Assembly (NCBI GenBank): GCA_945866305.1
Contig: CAMBGS010000002.1
Span: 1-59,289, forward strand
Direction of reading: 5' to 3'
DNA from: Bifidobacterium breve
GTDB taxonomy: Bacteria; Actinomycetota; Actinomycetes; Nanopelagicales; Nanopelagicaceae
Length of the DNA stretch: 59,289 nucleotides
Below, piece after piece: positions 17,424 to 28,649 of the stretch; the stretch's first letter is position 1, and the number at the start of each line of letters is the position of its first letter. Below the pieces are notes generated by a model. That model had not been told where the DNA came from and ran no database searches. It worked only from the letters and a program-made list of their open reading frames with translations. The position numbers and the translations under genes were made by a program.

Positions 17424-18341
17424 CTATGCACGGGGATGGGCTTGTTTAAAGGCTTTTTGCAACCGTTCAGTTGATACGTGGGTGTAGATCTGAGTTGTAG
17501 CCAAAGATGCATGCCCCAAGATTTCTTGAACTGTTCTTAAATCCGCGCCACCTTCAAGTAAATGTGTCGCCGCCGAATGGCGCAACGCATGTGGGCCCAA
17601 CTTCTCTACACCTTCAAGGGCGGCAAGTGCGTGATAAACCATTGTGCGAACAGTGCGCTGATCAATTCTTTTTCCGCGCGCTCCAAGAAAAACCGCGCGC
17701 TCTGACTTTGCGCCAACCAAAGAATTTCTTCCGTCCTTTAGCCAAACTTCAAGTGCCTTCATCGCAGGATTTCCAATTGGAATAGTCCGCTCTTTATTTC
17801 CTTTACCTAATACCCGAATTGTAGATCGAGCATAATCAATATCTTCCAGATCTAAACCACAGAGCTCTGATACGCGCGCACCAGATGCATACAAGATCTC
17901 CAACATCGCAGAATCTCGTTTTGAAATCGGGCCATATTCTTCACCAACGCGCGCAGCCATTGCATCCATTGCTAACGATGCATCAGCAACGGTTAATACT
18001 TCCGGCAGCGTACGCGCACCTTTGGGGGTAGCGAGCGTTGCCCCAACATCTTTAGACATATAACCCTTTTTAGTTGCCCATTTGGTAAACAAGCGAATAG
18101 AAGTTGCTCGCCGGGAAAGTGTGGTCCGCGCGCTCCCTTTAGTTTGTTGATTGGCCAGCCACGAGCGAATATGTGCAATCTCTAGCGTTGCAAAATCACT
18201 CACATCCAATTTTTCTAAGTGTTCAAGGAAAGAATCTAGGTCGCCTAGATAAGCACGAATTGTATGAACCGAAAGATTGCGTTCTGCCTCTAGATATCTC
18301 TCAAATGCTGAGCGCACTTCACCTAGCACTGCGCTACTCAT
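17424..18341 (-). CDS. xerC: Tyrosine recombinase XerC
   Basis: LGPHALRHSAATHLLEGGADLRTVQEILGHASLATTQIYTHV catalytic R-H-R-H-Y region, YASGARVSELCGL. Confidence 0.93.
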   Translation of the reverse strand: MSSAVLGEVRSAFERYLEAERNLSVHTIRAYLGDLDSFLEHLEKLDVSDFATLEIAHIRSWLANQQTKGSARTTLSRRATSIRLFTKWATKKGYMSKDVGATLATPKGARTLPEVLTVADASLAMDAMAARVGEEYGPISKRDSAMLEILYASGARVSELCGLDLEDIDYARSTIRVLGKGNKERTIPIGNPAMKALEVWLKDGRNSLVGAKSERAVFLGARGKRIDQRTVRTMVYHALAALEGVEKLGPHALRHSAATHLLEGGADLRTVQEILGHASLATTQIYTHVSTERLQKAFKQAHPRA

Positions 18342-18351
18342 AAATTAAAGG

Positions 18352-19941
18352 CTACTCGGGTTTGCGACCCTGGCGCAGCAAGCCAAAGGTAACTGCATCT
18401 TCAAGCGCCATGGCAGATGCTGCAATCACATTTTCGTGAACGCCAACCGTGTTCCATTCGCCTTTACCATCGGATGTTTCAACAAGTACGCGTGTAACAG
18501 CCCCGGTACCAAGGCGACCTTCAAGAATACGAACTTTGTAATCAGTAAGTTCTAGTACTGATAGCTCGGGATAAAGTTGTTTTAACCCAGAGCGAAGCGC
18601 ATTATCAAAAGCGTTAACTGGTCCGTTTCCAGATCCAGCGCAAGATATTTCTTTTCCTTGCGCAGTAACTGTTACTTCTGCTTTTGTAATAATTGTCTGG
18701 TCTTGGGCTCGCTCAACTGTGGTCAACCAATGATTGATCTTGAAAAATGAAGGACGCTTTCCGTTTACTTCCTCCAGCAATAAAAGCTCGAAAGAGGCAT
18801 CAGCAGCTTCAAATGTAAATCCACGAGATTCCATATCTTTCACGCGATCAACGATTCGGCCTACGAGTTCGCGATCTCCACCGAGATCAACACCAAGTTC
18901 TTGTGACTTGAGTTCGATTGATGCCCGACCGGCCATGTCTGATACCAACATCCGCATATCGTTTCCAACAGATGAAGGATCTTCATGTTGATAGAGGGCT
19001 GGATCAACTTTGATTGCAGATGCGTGAAGGCCAGCCTTGTGCGCAAAGGCAGATACCCCAACATATGGCTGGCGGCCAGATGGTGAAATATTTGTAACTT
19101 CAGCAACCGCATGTGAAATACGAAACGACTCACGTAATAAATTTGTTGGAAGAACTAACTGCTTCTTCTTCAACTCTAAGTTGGCGATAATCGTGACTAG
19201 GTCTGCATTGCCGGTGCGTTCTCCGTAGCCATTTAAAGTTCCTTGTACATGAGTAGCGCCTGCGGCAACAGCAGCCATTGAGTTGGCAACTGCGCAACCG
19301 GTGTCGTTGTGGCAGTGGATGCCGATACGTGCAGAAGTTGCAGTTAAAACATCATGAACCACGTTGGCGATTTCATCAGGCAACATGCCACCGTTGGTAT
19401 CGCAGAGCGCAGCCACATCAGCGCCAGCTTCCATCGCAACGCGGATAACTTCCAGTGCGTAATCGCGATTTGCACGATAGCCATCAAAGAAGTGTTCGGC
19501 ATCAAGAAAAACGCGTTGACCTTCTTGGCGCAAGTGCGAAACTGAATCGCGAATCATCGCGAGGTTCTCTTCTAAAGTTGTTTTCAGTGCAAGGTCCACA
19601 TGGCGATCAAATGCTTTCGCTACCAAAGTAACCGCTGGTGCACCGCTTTCGCGAAGGGCTGCAAGTAACACATCATCGGCTGCCTTCACATTTGGGCGAC
19701 GTGTGGCACCGAATGCAACGAAGGTTGCATTCTTAAGCTTTAGCTCTTTCTTAGCGAGAGTAAAAAATTCAGTATCTTTGGGATTAGCTCCAGGCCAACC
19801 GCCTTCAATAAAGCCAACACCCAGATCATCTAAATGGCGAGCGATTGTTAACTTGTCGTGAACGGAAAGATTTAGACCTTCTTGCTGAGCACCGTCACGC
19901 AGAGTTGTGTCATAGATATGAAAAGCATCAGAGACTGGCAT
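18352..19941 (-). CDS. cimA: Citramalate synthase (2-isopropylmalate/homocitrate synthase family)
   Basis: YDTTLRDGAQQEGLNLS, HCHNDTGCAVANS, 529 aa with C-terminal regulatory domain. Confidence 0.88.
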   Translation of the reverse strand: MPVSDAFHIYDTTLRDGAQQEGLNLSVHDKLTIARHLDDLGVGFIEGGWPGANPKDTEFFTLAKKELKLKNATFVAFGATRRPNVKAADDVLLAALRESGAPAVTLVAKAFDRHVDLALKTTLEENLAMIRDSVSHLRQEGQRVFLDAEHFFDGYRANRDYALEVIRVAMEAGADVAALCDTNGGMLPDEIANVVHDVLTATSARIGIHCHNDTGCAVANSMAAVAAGATHVQGTLNGYGERTGNADLVTIIANLELKKKQLVLPTNLLRESFRISHAVAEVTNISPSGRQPYVGVSAFAHKAGLHASAIKVDPALYQHEDPSSVGNDMRMLVSDMAGRASIELKSQELGVDLGGDRELVGRIVDRVKDMESRGFTFEAADASFELLLLEEVNGKRPSFFKINHWLTTVERAQDQTIITKAEVTVTAQGKEISCAGSGNGPVNAFDNALRSGLKQLYPELSVLELTDYKVRILEGRLGTGAVTRVLVETSDGKGEWNTVGVHENVIAASAMALEDAVTFGLLRQGRKPE

Positions 19942-21020
19942 TAGATAACTCGCTTCATCCAGTCGTGCTTATCAGCAGTTGTTCCGTGCTGAATTGCAAG
20001 TAATTGATTTCTAATTTCCATCGTGATCTTTCCAGGTTGTCCATCTCCTGTTATCCACGTGCCCATAGCGCTCTTAGCTTGGCCAACTGGAGATACGACT
20101 GCTGCGGTACCGCAAGCAAAAATTTCAGTGATTTCGCCAGATGAAACACCATCACGCCAATCATCAATAGAGAGCATTACCTCATCTGTTTTATAGCCAA
20201 GATCCTTAGCCGCAAAAAGTATTGAATCGCGGGTTATTCCAGGCAATAAAGTACCGGTGAGCTTTGGAGTGATCACTGTTGCATCTGCGCCTTTACCTTT
20301 TACAAAGTAAAGGTTCATGCCGCCCATCTCTTCAATCCATTTGCGTTCTTTGGCATCGATCCAAACAACTTGATCACAACCTTCTTTTGCAGCAGCTTTC
20401 TGCGCGACAAGAGAAGCGGCGTAATTTCCACCGCACTTTGCTTCACCGGTTCCACCCTGTGCTGCGCGAACATATTCGGTTGAGATCCAAACTGAAACTG
20501 CTTTTGATGGATCAAAATATGCACCAGCTGGCGTTGCTATCAATAAGTAAGTTGCTTTATTTGTTGGGCGAACGCCAAGTCCTACTTCGGTTGCGATCAT
20601 AAATGGGCGAATGTAAAGAGATTCGCCAACTTTATTTGGAACCCATCCCGCATCTTGTTTTACAAGAGTCTCAACCGTCTCCAAGAAAAGTGCTTCTGGC
20701 ATTTCAGGAAGAGCGAGTCGCGCTGCGGATTTTGCAAAGCGACGAGCATTTGCTTCGGGACGAAATAGCGCAATGCCACCATCAGGTTGGCGATAAGCCT
20801 TCATTCCCTCAAAGATTTCCTGACCGTAATGAAAGACTGCAGTTGCTGGATCGAGTGAAATTGGGCCGTAAGGAATTAACTCCGGTTCGGCCCATCCATC
20901 TTTTTCGGTCCATTCACAGATCACCATGTGATCTGTGTAGTACTTGCCGAATCCACCCTCAGCCACCAATGCGTCGCGAACCGCGGCGTCTTTAGCGTTT
21001 GGATTGATGGTTATCTTCAT
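19941..21020 (-). CDS. ilvE: Branched-chain amino acid aminotransferase
   Basis: YGQEIFEGMKAYRQPDG, GEAKCGGNYAASLVAQ, EEMGGMNLYFV. Confidence 0.95.
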   Translation of the reverse strand: MKITINPNAKDAAVRDALVAEGGFGKYYTDHMVICEWTEKDGWAEPELIPYGPISLDPATAVFHYGQEIFEGMKAYRQPDGGIALFRPEANARRFAKSAARLALPEMPEALFLETVETLVKQDAGWVPNKVGESLYIRPFMIATEVGLGVRPTNKATYLLIATPAGAYFDPSKAVSVWISTEYVRAAQGGTGEAKCGGNYAASLVAQKAAAKEGCDQVVWIDAKERKWIEEMGGMNLYFVKGKGADATVITPKLTGTLLPGITRDSILFAAKDLGYKTDEVMLSIDDWRDGVSSGEITEIFACGTAAVVSPVGQAKSAMGTWITGDGQPGKITMEIRNQLLAIQHGTTADKHDWMKRVI

Positions 21021-21022
21021 TT

Positions 21023-22057
21023 TTAAAGTAGCGCGACTAGCGCATCTCCAACTTCTGTAGTGCTGCGCTTCTTATCTCCGCGAGCAAGTAAGTCGGCAGA
21101 TACAGCAACTTCGATTTCGCGAGCAGCTTCACCTAGCCCCATGTGCTCTAACAGCATTGCAACCGACATAACGGTTGCAGTTGGATCGGCTAAATTCTTA
21201 CCAGCGATATCTGGTGCTGAACCGTGCACTGGTTCAAACATAGATGGGAATTCGCGAGTTGGGTTGATATTGCCTGAAGCAGCAAGTCCGATACCTCCAC
21301 AAATTGCCGCAGAAATATCGGTCAAGATATCTCCAAACAAATTGTCAGAAACAACTACATCGAAGCGCTCTGGGCTATTTACAAAGAACATAGCTGCGGC
21401 ATCAACGTGTAGGTAATCGGTTGTCACTGTTGGAAATTCTTTAGCGACTTCTTCAAAGGTGCGCGTCCAAAGGCTTCCGGAATGAACCAGAACATTGTTC
21501 TTGTGCACAAGGGTTAACTTCTTGCGATCGCGCTTTTCGGCCCGAGCAAAGGCATCGCGAATAACTCGCTCTGCACCGCGACGGGTGTTAAGTGATTCTT
21601 CGGTTGCAATTTCATTCGCGGTTCCAATTGCAAGTGTCCCGCCTGCACCGGAATATGGGCCTTCAGTTCCTTCTCGAATCACAATGAAATCAATAGGGGA
21701 TTTAGTGGCAAGTGGACCTTTTACACCTGGGCGCAAAAGAGCGGGGCGTAGGTTTACGTAGTGATCAAATGCAAAGCGAAGTTTCAATAGCAAGCCACGT
21801 TCCAAAATTCCGCTTGGGACAGTTGGATCGCCGACCGCGCCGAGCAAGATGACATCTGATTTGGCTAGTTCTGCCATCACAGAATCGGGAAGGGCTTCTC
21901 CAGTGCGATGCCAGTAAGTGGCACCTAGGTCATATTCGGTCTTTTCAAAAGTTGCGCCGTGCTTTGCGGCAACTTTATCTAGAACACGAAGTCCTTGCGC
22001 GATTACTTCTGGACCAATGCCATCACCGGCTATAACTGCAAGATTTATCTTCTTCAC
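21023..22057 (-). CDS. leuB: 3-isopropylmalate dehydrogenase
   Basis: [47 protein letters not shown]. Confidence 0.95.
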
Positions 22058-22069
22058 TATCTTCCCTCC

Positions 22070-24998
<2,929 letters not shown>

Positions 24999-24999
<1 letters not shown>

Positions 25000-26759
25000 T
25001 AGAGCTCCTGTGAATCCCAGTCAGGCGCAGTTGCGCGAGCGATCATGATCTCATCGTTTGAAGTTCCGGCTGCAACCATTGGCCAAACCATCGCATCACG
25101 ATGAACGCGGAAGTCAACGACAACTGGTTGATCATTGATCGCCATAGCTTTTTCGATTGTTGCATCAACATCTGCTGGGTTCTCGCAAGAAAGTCCAACG
25201 CAGCCCATTGCTTCAGCCAGCAATGGAAAGTTGGGAACTCTCTTTGAATCAAGGCTGGTATTTGAATAACGGCTGTCATAGAACAAGGTCTGCCATTGGC
25301 GAACCATTCCTAAACTTTCATTATTGATGATTGCTACTTTAATCGGAATATTATTGAGTGCGCAAGTAACTAATTCTTGATTAGTCATCTGGAAACAACC
25401 ATCTCCATCAATAGCCCAAACTGTTGTATCTGGTGCGCCAACTTTGGCACCCATTGCTGCTGGTACCGCGTAACCCATGGTGCCCGCGCCGCCTGAGTTA
25501 AGCCAGGTGCGTGGCTTTTCGTAACTAATAAATTGTGATGCCCACATCTGATGTTGGCCAACGCCTGCTGCAAAGATTGTGTCTGGGCCACAGATTTTTC
25601 CAAGCCGTTCAATTACATATTGTGGTGATAGTGCACCATCTGCTGGCGTGTCATATCCCAATGGATATGTTGCTTTTAACTTATTCACACTGGCCAGCCA
25701 AGGTGAGATATCAGCACGGCCCTTTGCAAGAGTTGCTGTAAGTGCCGGAATCAAAGCCTTAATTGTTTCGCGCAAATCACCGATTACTGCAACATCGGCG
25801 TAACGGTTTTTACCTATTTCGGCAGGATCGATATCTGCGTGAATAACCTTTGCATTTTGGGCGAATGTTGAGAGCTTTCCAGTTACACGATCATCAAAGC
25901 GCGCGCCTAAAGTAATTAGTAGATCAGCCTTTTGTAAGCCAGTCACTGCGGCAACGGTGCCGTGCATTCCGGGCATACCCAGATGCAATGGATGTGAATC
26001 AGGGAATGCACCTCGTGCCATCAAAGTTGTAACAACAGGTGCACCAAGTAGTTGAGCGAGTTCTAACAATTCGCGAGCGGCATTAGCTTTAATAACTCCA
26101 CCACCAACATAGAAAATGGGCTTGGCAGATTGCGCAATAAGCGCGGCTGCATCATTGATCGCACCTTGGTTAGGTTGGGTCTGCGGTTTGTAGCCAGCTA
26201 AATTTATTGAAGTCGGCCAGTCATAAGTTGTCTGCTTTTGCAGAGCATCTTTAGCGATATCTACCAAGACTGGGCCAGGGCGGCCAGAAGTTGCAATATG
26301 AAATGCTTCAGCGATTACGCGCGGGATTTGGTCAGGATCTGTAACTAGAAAATTATGTTTGGTAAATGGCATTGTGATACCGCGGATATCTGCTTCCTGA
26401 AAAGCATCGGTACCAATAGCAAGTGAAGGAACTTGGCCAGTAATCGCAACCATTGGAACTGAATCCATTGCTGCATCAGCCAGTGGTGTTACCAAGTTTG
26501 TGGCACCTGGTCCAGAAGTTGCAATACAGACTCCCGCACGTCCCGTTACTTGTGCATAGCCAGTTGCCGCATGCCCAGCACCTTGTTCGTGACGAACCAA
26601 AATATGGCGAATAGTTGAGTCATAGATCGGATCGTAAGCAGGAAGAATTGCGCCACCAGGAATTCCAAACATCACATCGACGCCGGATGCTTCAAGGCTT
26701 TTCACCAATGAAGTTGCTCCAGTCATTGCGGTGCCGTTGGCAGTAGGCACGTGTGCCAT
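24999..26759 (-). CDS. ilvB: Acetolactate synthase large subunit
   Basis: [50 protein letters not shown] (ThDP motif). Confidence 0.97.
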
Positions 26760-26801
26760 CTTCTTACTCCTTTCCGTTTGCGGTTACTTTATTTATTAAA
26801 T

Positions 26802-26826
26802 AAAAAAACCCTCAGTTATCTGAGGG
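26802..26826 (-). terminator. Intrinsic terminator/attenuator upstream of ilvB
   Basis: Minus strand CCCTCAG-ATAA-CTGAGGG followed by TTTTTTT, between leader peptide and ilvB. Confidence 0.88.
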
Positions 26827-26850
26827 CGCGTGCTTTAAAAAGGCACGCGC
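26826..26850 (-). promoter_or_regulatory. GC-rich leader hairpin adjacent to the attenuator
   Basis: GCGCGTGC/GCACGCGC 8-bp perfect stem starting at the leader peptide stop codon. Confidence 0.8.
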
Positions 26851-26909
26851 TATCGAATCACCACCACAATTACAGACGATGACGAGATGAGCGCTAGCTT
26901 CTTTTGCAT
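26850..26909 (-). CDS. ilv operon leader peptide MQKKLALISSSSVIVVVIR
   Basis: 20-codon ORF with VIVVVI run directly upstream of hairpin plus terminator and ilvB. Confidence 0.85.
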   Translation of the reverse strand: MQKKLALISSSSVIVVVIR

Positions 26910-26915
26910 AGGCTT

Positions 26916-26945
26916 ATTGTCCAACGGCGACGGCGCTTGAGTCAA
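26916..26945 (-). promoter_or_regulatory. Candidate sigma70-type promoter for the ilv leader
   Basis: TTGACT (26940-26945), 18-nt spacer, GACAAT (26916-26921); -10 lies 6 nt upstream of leader ATG. Confidence 0.6.
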
Positions 26946-26975: not shown

Positions 26976-28649
26976 CTAGCCGCAGACCGCACCCTTTGAG
27001 GCTGAACCAACGGTCTTTGAATACTTAGCCAAAACCCCTCGAGTGAATTTATGAGGAAGTGGTTTCCAGCCGATTTTGCGGGATGCAAGTTCGGCTGGAT
27101 CTACCAATAGATCCAAAGTGCGCGCCTCAATATCGATTCGAATTAAATCGCCATCTTTGATAAATGCAATTGGGCCACCATCAACGGCTTCAGGTGCAAC
27201 GTGGCCGACGCAGAGTCCGGTTGATCCTCCAGAGAAACGTCCATCAGTTAATAGCAAAACTGACTTTCCAAGTCCGGCACCTTTGATTGCACCAGTGATC
27301 ATTAGCATCTCGCGCATTCCAGGTCCGCCTTTTGGACCTTCATAACGAATTACTACAACATCGCCTGCTTGAATTGTTCCATTTTGTAATGCAGTCATTG
27401 CTGCTTGCTCACGTTCAAATACACGGGCAGGGCCCTCAAAAGTTTCAATGCCTATACCAGCTGTCTTGCAAACAGCGCCGTCTGAGGCAAGAGATCCACC
27501 CAAAATTGTTATTCCCACATCTGTCGAAAGTGGCGTTGCGATTGCGTGCAAAATATCGCCATCTACATCCGGAGGGTTAATTCCTTCAAGATTTTCCGAC
27601 ATAGTTTTTCCTGTTACGGTCATTACATCTCCGTGTAATAAACCAGCATCAAGTAGCGCTTTCAAAATTACAGGAACGCCACCGACTTTATCCATATCGC
27701 TCATTACATAGCGACCAAATGGTTTTAAATCTCCTAGTAGAGGAACACGTGAGCCGATGCGATGGAAGTCATCTAAAGATAAATCAACTTCTGCTTCGTG
27801 AGCTATTGCCAGTAAATGAAGAACAGCATTTGTTGAACCGCCAACTGCCATAACTGCAGTGATTGCATTTTCGAAAGCTCGCTTAGTCAAGATGTCACGA
27901 GTGGTGAGCCCAAGTTTGATCATATTTACAACAGCGGCACCAGATGCAACTGCAAAAGCATCTCGGCGGCGATCAACTGCAGGAGGTGCTGCAGAACCTG
28001 GAAGGGAGAGCCCAATCGCTTCACCGACCGTTGCCATGGTGTTCGCGGTGAACATTCCGCCACATGCACCTTCGCCTGGACAAATTGCACGTTCGATTTG
28101 ATCAACGCGCTCTTTGGTAATTAACCCGCGCGCGCAAGCACCAACGGCTTCAAATGCATCAATGATTGTCACATCTTGGCCATCGACATTTCCTGGAAGA
28201 GTTGAACCGGCATACACGAACACGGATGCAACATCGATGCGGGCTGCCGCCATCATCATTCCGGGAAGTGATTTATCGCAACCGGCGAAGGTGACCATTC
28301 CATCTAAACGCTCTGCCTGCATAACGGTTTCGACGGAATCTGCAATAACTTCACGCGAGACAAGTGAGAAGTGCATTCCTTCGTGGCCCATTGAAATTCC
28401 ATCTGAAACCGAAATCGTTCCGAACTGCATTGGGAAACCACCGGCATCAATTACGCCTTGCTTTGAAGCTTTCGCTAAACGATCAAGTGAGAGATTGCAC
28501 GGGGTGATTTCATTCCAAGATGATGCAATACCAATTTGTGGTTTTACCCAGTCAGCATCTGACATACCAACTGCTCTTAACATTCCGCGAGCAGGTGCGC
28601 GTTCTATTCCATCTGTGACCAAACCCGAACGTGGCTTCATCTGCGACAT
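26976..28649 (-). CDS. ilvD: Dihydroxy-acid dehydratase
   Basis: [19 protein letters not shown]-like, [38 protein letters not shown]. Confidence 0.97.

Follow-up and report, generated by a model that had tools for sequence, protein, structure and literature searches.

The ilvB leader and its elements

The intergenic region ahead of ilvB in the window (the whole stretch of 59,289 nucleotides that was analysed) raises the question of whether a translating ribosome decides there between termination and read-through, and how it could do so with two hairpins that lie side by side. The leader (26802-26909, minus strand) is located between ilvD, which ends at 26976, and ilvB, which starts at 26759, all on the same strand, and reads in order as promoter, ATG, short ORF, hairpin A, terminator T, U7, and then ilvB (Table 1). 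A preliminary description of this DNA had listed a 20-codon minus-strand ORF with six consecutive valine and isoleucine codons, an 8-bp hairpin, a terminator, and ilvB, and each of these was found in its place. The ATG of ilvL lies 6 nt past the -10 box, an arrangement of the leaderless type, and transcription is predicted to start at or beside the A of this codon. Hairpin A comprises 8 bp, its first base being the G of the ilvL stop codon, and terminator T comprises 8 bp with the G-U closing pair counted. One point of the preliminary description can be refined: with each taken to its full extent, hairpin A and T overlap by 2 nt (26826-26827). The fold of the free leader RNA is better than those of all but 1 of 200 shuffled sequences (z = -3.97), and T ranks first among the terminator-like sites between 16000 and 29000 both by stem pairs and by G-C pairs. 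Together with the conservation of the arrangement in 108 of 108 genus members and in 163 parsed leaders, this indicates that it did not arise by chance. A scan of the leader against Rfam gave no family match (T-box, ppGpp riboswitch, or other) beyond one chance snoRNA hit.

Table 1. Coordinates of the ilvB leader elements and of the operon genes in the window
Feature	Positions	Strand	Remarks
-35 element TTGACT	26940-26945	-	promoter-like; spacer to -10 of 18 nt
-10 element GACAAT	26916-26921	-	GAGAAT or similar in relatives
Leader ORF ilvL, MQKKLALISSSSVIVVVIR	26850-26909	-	ATG 26909, TAG 26850; 19 aa plus stop
Control codons GTA ATT GTG GTG GTG ATT (VIVVVI)	26856-26873	-	first base of last codon 8 nt before hairpin A
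Possible anti-antiterminator (1:2-type hairpin)	26847-26894	-	folding prediction
Hairpin A, proposed antiterminator, GCGCGTGC (26850-26843) / GCACGCGC (26833-26826)	26826-26850	-	sequence, folding, covariation
Intrinsic terminator stem T, GCCCTCAG-ATAA-CTGAGGGT (CCCTCAG-ATAA-CTGAGGG)	26808-26827	-	sequence, conservation
U-tract (T7) of terminator T	26802-26808	-	sequence
Shine-Dalgarno-like GGAAAGGAG of ilvB	26767-26775	-	sequence; within the ~40 nt between U7 and ilvB
ilvB, acetolactate synthase large subunit, 586 aa	24999-26759	-	TIGR00118, NF005860
ilvN, acetolactate synthase small subunit; short (95 aa), with the ACT-domain half alone	24712-24999	-	TIGR00119 positions 3-79 of 158
ilvC ORF, ketol-acid reductoisomerase	23655-24761	-	family match from residue 26
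serA, leuB, ilvE, cimA	18352-23812	-	same operon, almost no gaps from serA onward

Distribution of the leader

The IlvB protein is 96% identical to that of Actinobacteria bacterium IMCC26103, whose complete genome (CP015604) also contains the leader element, and other close records are labelled 'Candidatus Nanopelagicaceae'; we infer a freshwater, Planktophila-like host, the genus name included. The genus is represented by 135 species with genomes of about 1.3 Mb. Upstream regions of ilvB were taken from about 110 of its members, and all 108 with readable upstream DNA carry the Val-Ile codons, hairpin A, and T. The preliminary description had named the absence of such codons or hairpins from related genomes as the observation that would speak against its reading; the 108 genus members and the 163 parsed leaders conserve both. 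A further 60 loci from the family's other genera, mostly recognised by a covariance model (R1, built from 26 genus members), also carry the element, which precedes ilvB across 16 genera of the family and, with small variations, in more than 160 related species. In the genome of the window R1 has a single match, at the ilvB leader, and in a scan of 395 genomes from the class its matches fall almost entirely within this family, the few in two other families being located upstream of ilvB or of cimA. A second match in one genome (L209 in G134) was discarded as an ordinary terminator without a leader. In ilvB upstream regions from across the class, the leader peptide reads, for example, MRTRILVLGKRVG (Streptomyces) or MRTEILVRTRRVS (Nocardioides), and sequence comparison suggests that the ilvB leaders of the class are one homologous element. 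Automatic hairpin parsing failed or was unreliable in many high-GC genomes, including Streptomyces, and linker values from these were not used.

Start site, reading frame, and control codons

The predicted signals for transcription and translation of the leader are conserved. The start codon follows the -10 element by 6-7 nt in 163 of 163 parsed leaders, a peak that is partly guided by the parser, which looked for start codons at 3-10 nt downstream of a promoter with a preference for about 6 nt, though the sequences show the spacing directly. All 163 have a -35/-10 spacer of 17-18 nt and an ORF that ends ahead of T, with peptides of 7-30 aa, and a Val-Val or longer run of Val, Ile, or Leu is present in 160. 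The N-terminal parts of the peptides are mostly dissimilar (MSTTFVVVI, MQSTRSSVVSVVVIR, MISVVVIEKRAI). Judged from these comparisons, the conserved start, frame, and run are what would be expected if the message is leaderless and its sensor is translated, as in ilvL of C. glutamicum, where the transcript starts one nt from the start codon and replacement of the valine codons by alanine codons abolishes control (PMC11857589). Leaders of only 7-9 residues (MSTQSVVI, MSTTFVVVI; L083, L061, L067, and other genus members) are apparently enough. The leader of one genus, g5 (L134-L136), reads MLSRISVRLERAS and is nearly devoid of a branched-chain run, yet hairpin A and T are kept; its sensor function may have been lost or changed.

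Codon usage in the run is strongly biased. In a relative whose genome is complete (G012), GTG is the rarest valine codon of the genes, at 13.9% of 7562, whereas the last two leader valine codons before the isoleucine codon are GTG in 210 of 214 cases (98%) across the genus; the other leader valine codons are GTG in 92 of 157. Codon choice has been predicted to set the sensitivity of attenuators, a link that is backed by theory and by experiment (PMC1183508). Invariance of the GTGGTGGTGATT nucleotides was considered as a sign of base pairing and set aside, because the use of rare codons explains it at least as well. The tRNA that reads GTG was not located in 800 kb of a relative's genome, in which the single tRNA-Val has the anticodon GAC (L320-L339, L341-L360), and a pattern search for tRNA motifs gave no useful result.

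In 73 of 83 aligned leaders the last branched-chain codon begins 8 nt before the first base of hairpin A, while the stop codon is found at -5, -2, +5, +6, or +10 nt relative to the start of the hairpin. Hairpin A is therefore fixed relative to the control codons and not to the stop. In the clade of the window the stop is located at the foot of hairpin A. In L049, L050, L052, L060, L063, L073, and most of the other genera, the stop lies inside the loop of hairpin A, so that the 5' arm is translated (peptides ending in VVIRKRAI or ERAI).

Hairpin A, terminator T, and their junction

A covariance alignment of the ilvB upstream regions, as had been suggested in the preliminary description, was made for 85 loci. 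In this structure-guided alignment 96.4% of the cells are paired, with two-sided changes in 13 of 18 pairs overall and in 7 of the 10 pairs of hairpin A. The covariation score of the whole structure was 0.229, compared with 0.111 in shuffled alignments (0 of 500 reached it) and at most 0.075 in slid controls; covariation is partly built into an alignment that is fitted to the structure, but the slid controls nonetheless lie far below. On this comparative evidence, hairpin A and T are both conserved RNA structures.

The way in which they are joined varies. Within the genus the offset from A to T is -2 in 37 species, -1 in 6, 0 in 59, and +1 in 6; the species of the window has 2 nt common to both structures, and 65 of 108 genus members have none. 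In some other genera A extends 3 nt into T, giving a range for the junction of about -3 to +1 nt over the variants. Where nothing is common to A and T, base pairing cannot make them mutually exclusive, and any exclusion would have to be steric. A strong hairpin abutting the terminator was found at 4 of 19 ordinary terminator-like sites in 800 kb of a relative's genome compared with 141 of 166 ilvB leaders, a difference that is supporting and not decisive, as the baseline is high (11 of 19 when weak hairpins are counted) and the species are related. An earlier and smaller version of this control comprised 7 sites. Sites between genes that resemble intrinsic terminators are scarce in this lineage, these 800 kb containing 19 candidates.

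Folding predictions for the species of the window place two states, A with 8 bp and T with 6 bp (A8/T6) or the reverse (A6/T8), only 0.9 kcal/mol apart. When a ribosome was represented by a mask, with an assumed footprint of 13 nt that begins with the A-site codon's first base, positioning it on an early GTG codon gave A8/T6 at -23.9, and positioning it at the stop codon gave T8 with A absent. Such folds had been put forward earlier as a check on attenuation, and their outcome is in line with it: a ribosome at the stop codon masks A wholly or mostly and leaves T alone, whereas on the early GTG codons it leaves A free. A and T can also form together in predicted folds. Masking of each control codon and of the stop codon in turn yielded essentially only A and T and no classical antiterminator. 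An antiterminator made of the GTGGTGGTG codons and the 5' arm of T was rejected by reasoning: a stalled ribosome covers those codons, which would reverse the logic, and the pairing is weak. In predicted folds of ribosome-free RNA from the window species and about 20 relatives, mostly with long leaders, the early leader codons pair with the control codons, the stop codon, and the 5' arm of A. Of the 163 leaders, only about 20 are predicted with high probability to form this putative anti-antiterminator, which makes it a feature of a clade, and its absence from most short-leader species indicates that it is not essential.

Comparison with known attenuators

The ilvBNC attenuator of C. glutamicum (ilvL MTIIRLVVVTARRLP) is among the closest described systems, with a leaderless peptide, a valine run, an A-T junction with common boundary nucleotides, ilvB downstream, and an extra anti-antiterminator in front (hairpin H1) that is comparable to the early-codon hairpin of the window clade (PMC11857589). 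In that 'fast attenuator', antiterminator and terminator overlap at the boundary GCC, and mutants support the model (PMC11857589). Here 2 nt are common in place of 3, while most relatives have no common nucleotide; the hairpin has another sequence, and the system is known from sequence. Two hallmarks of the C. glutamicum type recur, namely a start codon at the 5' end of the message, as indicated by promoter spacing, and bases of A and T that adjoin or overlap (genus offset -2 to +1). The ilvB1NC leader of M. tuberculosis is similar by description, with a short uORF rich in branched-chain codons (LVVI), a terminator before ilvB1, and a proposed stall-dependent antiterminator; its terminated transcript and its induction were demonstrated by SEnd-seq and reporters (PMC13236596). 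These precedents bear out the earlier remark that the architecture is established for actinobacterial ilvB, and they make the present leader a new lineage of a known kind. In the accessible text of Seliverstov et al. 2005 (PMC1262725), ilvB leader peptides with terminators are predicted in Corynebacterium, Mycobacterium, and Streptomyces. These candidates and the ilvB-II motif of Corynebacterium (PMC10272879) share an I/L/V uORF that overlaps or precedes a terminator upstream of ilvB, and in the accessible parts of both sources they are described for those three genera and not for this freshwater family.

The trp, his, and ilv attenuators of E. coli share the regulatory codons, the logic of ribosome position, and the intrinsic terminator. 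Their classical antiterminators use a whole arm of the terminator. The present structures have only 0-3 nt in common, and 2 nt in the species of the window, in line with the earlier suggestion that the switch may differ from the classical 1:2/2:3/3:4 arrangement. So far as could be found, there is no earlier description of junctions with zero overlap, of the 8-nt ruler, or of leaders ahead of cimA (see below), and a limited literature search retrieved no paper that plainly treats steric exclusion by a hairpin joined to a terminator.

With this leader, a large and experimentally unstudied freshwater lineage with streamlined genomes joins the known actinobacterial ilvB attenuators, and genomes that are poor in intrinsic terminators have retained one for this function. 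The more than 160 natural variants provide rules for its design: a leaderless start, an 8-nt codon-to-hairpin distance, rare GTG control codons, and a junction of about -3 to +1 nt. The zero-overlap variants pose the question of how an antiterminator functions without a nucleotide common to the terminator.

Proposed mechanism and alternatives

We consider it highly probable that the ilvB operon is under ribosome-mediated transcription attenuation by this leader, and that the leader belongs to the leaderless type of the actinobacteria. The run of end-product codons and the intrinsic terminator are read from the DNA, and a ribosome-dependent structure is indicated by the masked folds and the 8-nt spacing. 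The attenuation reading of the preliminary description is thus upheld by the conservation of the codons, of hairpin A with its covariation, of the terminator, of the leaderless start, and of the codon-hairpin spacing. Judged by its architecture, the leader very likely raises expression of the operon upon shortage of valine or isoleucine. Hairpin A is likely the antiterminator, as the fixed 8-nt codon spacing, the masked folds, and the equivalent hairpin of C. glutamicum all favour this role, contrary to the initial view that it was not an obvious one.

RNA polymerase would start at the ilvL ATG, with a 70S ribosome loading straight onto the 5' end of the transcript and following. When Val- or Ile-tRNA is scarce, the ribosome would stall on the GTG/ATT run with its leading edge just before hairpin A, which, by this geometry, could then fold once it is made. 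Folded hairpin A would occupy 26826-26827 and keep the base of T open, leaving a 6-bp stem, and transcription would enter ilvB. In relatives without a common nucleotide, the geometry suggests that a rigid hairpin joined to T is probably not accommodated as T zips in the exit channel of the polymerase. With ample valine and isoleucine, the ribosome would reach the stop at the foot of A and melt the hairpin, T would close to 8 bp, and transcription would end in the U-tract. In the window clade the putative anti-antiterminator, in which early codons pair with the 5' arm of A, would block A and favour termination without a ribosome.

Attenuation could also operate with hairpin A in another role, as a polymerase-pausing or ribosome-synchronising hairpin, while the stalled ribosome or an unrecognised structure blocks T. 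The compatibility of A and T in the predicted folds of most relatives fits such a role, as does the fact that the 1:2 hairpin of classical attenuators is a pause hairpin. This is nevertheless unlikely, because the ribosome-masked folds contain no other structure incompatible with T, A and T have 2 nt in common in the species of the window, and the C. glutamicum equivalent of A acts as an antiterminator in mutants (PMC11857589). A leader that is transcribed and translated but whose codons exert no control, with ilvB regulated by other means, would match the finding for S. coelicolor, where a change of leader codons was without effect on ilvB regulation, as reported in the accessible text of PMC1262725; the strong bias and fixed position of the codons here, the positive experiments in C. 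glutamicum, and the induced attenuator of M. tuberculosis render this very unlikely.

Whether T merely ends ilvD transcription, with a constant fraction of read-through and the peptide as a by-product, was weighed in view of the ilvD end about 150 nt upstream on the same strand and of the scarcity of intergenic terminator-like sites in the lineage. The leader is separated from ilvD by a promoter, however, and the leader frame, branched-chain codons, GTG bias, and 8-nt ruler are all kept, none of which a plain terminator needs, so that we regard this explanation as highly improbable. The chance of a metabolite or tRNA riboswitch (ppGpp type or T-box) appears negligible: ppGpp riboswitches do precede ilvB in some Firmicutes, but ilvB-II RNA is without ppGpp binding (both from the accessible part of PMC10272879), the Rfam scan yielded only the chance snoRNA hit, and the RNA of about 108 nt is fully used by the ORF, A, and T.

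Beyond the ribosome-mediated attenuator favoured here, we tentatively propose, as a possibility short of probable, that these leaders represent a widespread attenuator class of the Actinomycetes. In this class, exclusion of the terminator would come not from sequence in common with the antiterminator but from linker-free joining of the two, the polymerase being unable to hold both, and the design would be used in ilvB (Val/Ile) and separately in cimA (Ile-run) leaders at a fixed distance of 8 nt from the last control codon.

Isoleucine leaders upstream of cimA

Two of the R1 matches outside the family are located between ilvE and cimA of another actinomycete family (L206:363-437, L207). The cimA product, citramalate synthase, catalyses the isoleucine-specific entry reaction. 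A short leaderless-type ORF ending in isoleucine codons precedes 27 of 30 cimA loci of that family (L290-L319 among the loci), with peptides such as VTSTIIIT, VRHSIIIT, and MLHHGIIIN, and with IKI in two. The last isoleucine codon starts 7-8 nt before hairpin A, and T abuts this hairpin with a gap of 0 in 27 of 27, a value obtained with A folded outside T, so that overlap is unscored; by eye there is at most one extra U-G pair. From this layout the cimA leader appears to be an attenuator that senses isoleucine and controls citramalate synthase. It is apparently new to the literature, of which a limited search found no description of such a leader for this enzyme. The isoleucine run fits the pathway of cimA, and the spacing and junction are the same, which supports both the role of the codons as sensor and the junction as a design rule. 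The cimA leaders thus present the same chassis with sensor codons swapped to suit the pathway. In the species of the window, cimA overlaps the end of ilvE and is without a leader of its own.

The operon downstream

The preliminary description had placed the leader upstream of ilvBNC, which is correct for these three genes but understates the operon, whose order on one strand is ilvB-N-C-serA-leuB-ilvE-cimA. The names ilvB, ilvN, ilvC, and ilvD are given by family match and cimA by similarity, whereas for serA, leuB, and ilvE we presume the names from the translations and from knowledge of the families. As the seven genes follow one another on one strand, a switch ahead of ilvB would act on most of branched-chain amino acid synthesis. 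The true start of ilvC is probably near 24686, as the family match begins at residue 26. IlvN is without the C-terminal domain, the small-subunit models being matched over their first half only (about 3-79 of 158). After cimA, a xerC-like gene (17424-18341, minus strand) extends the tight array downstream of ilvC to 17424-23812.
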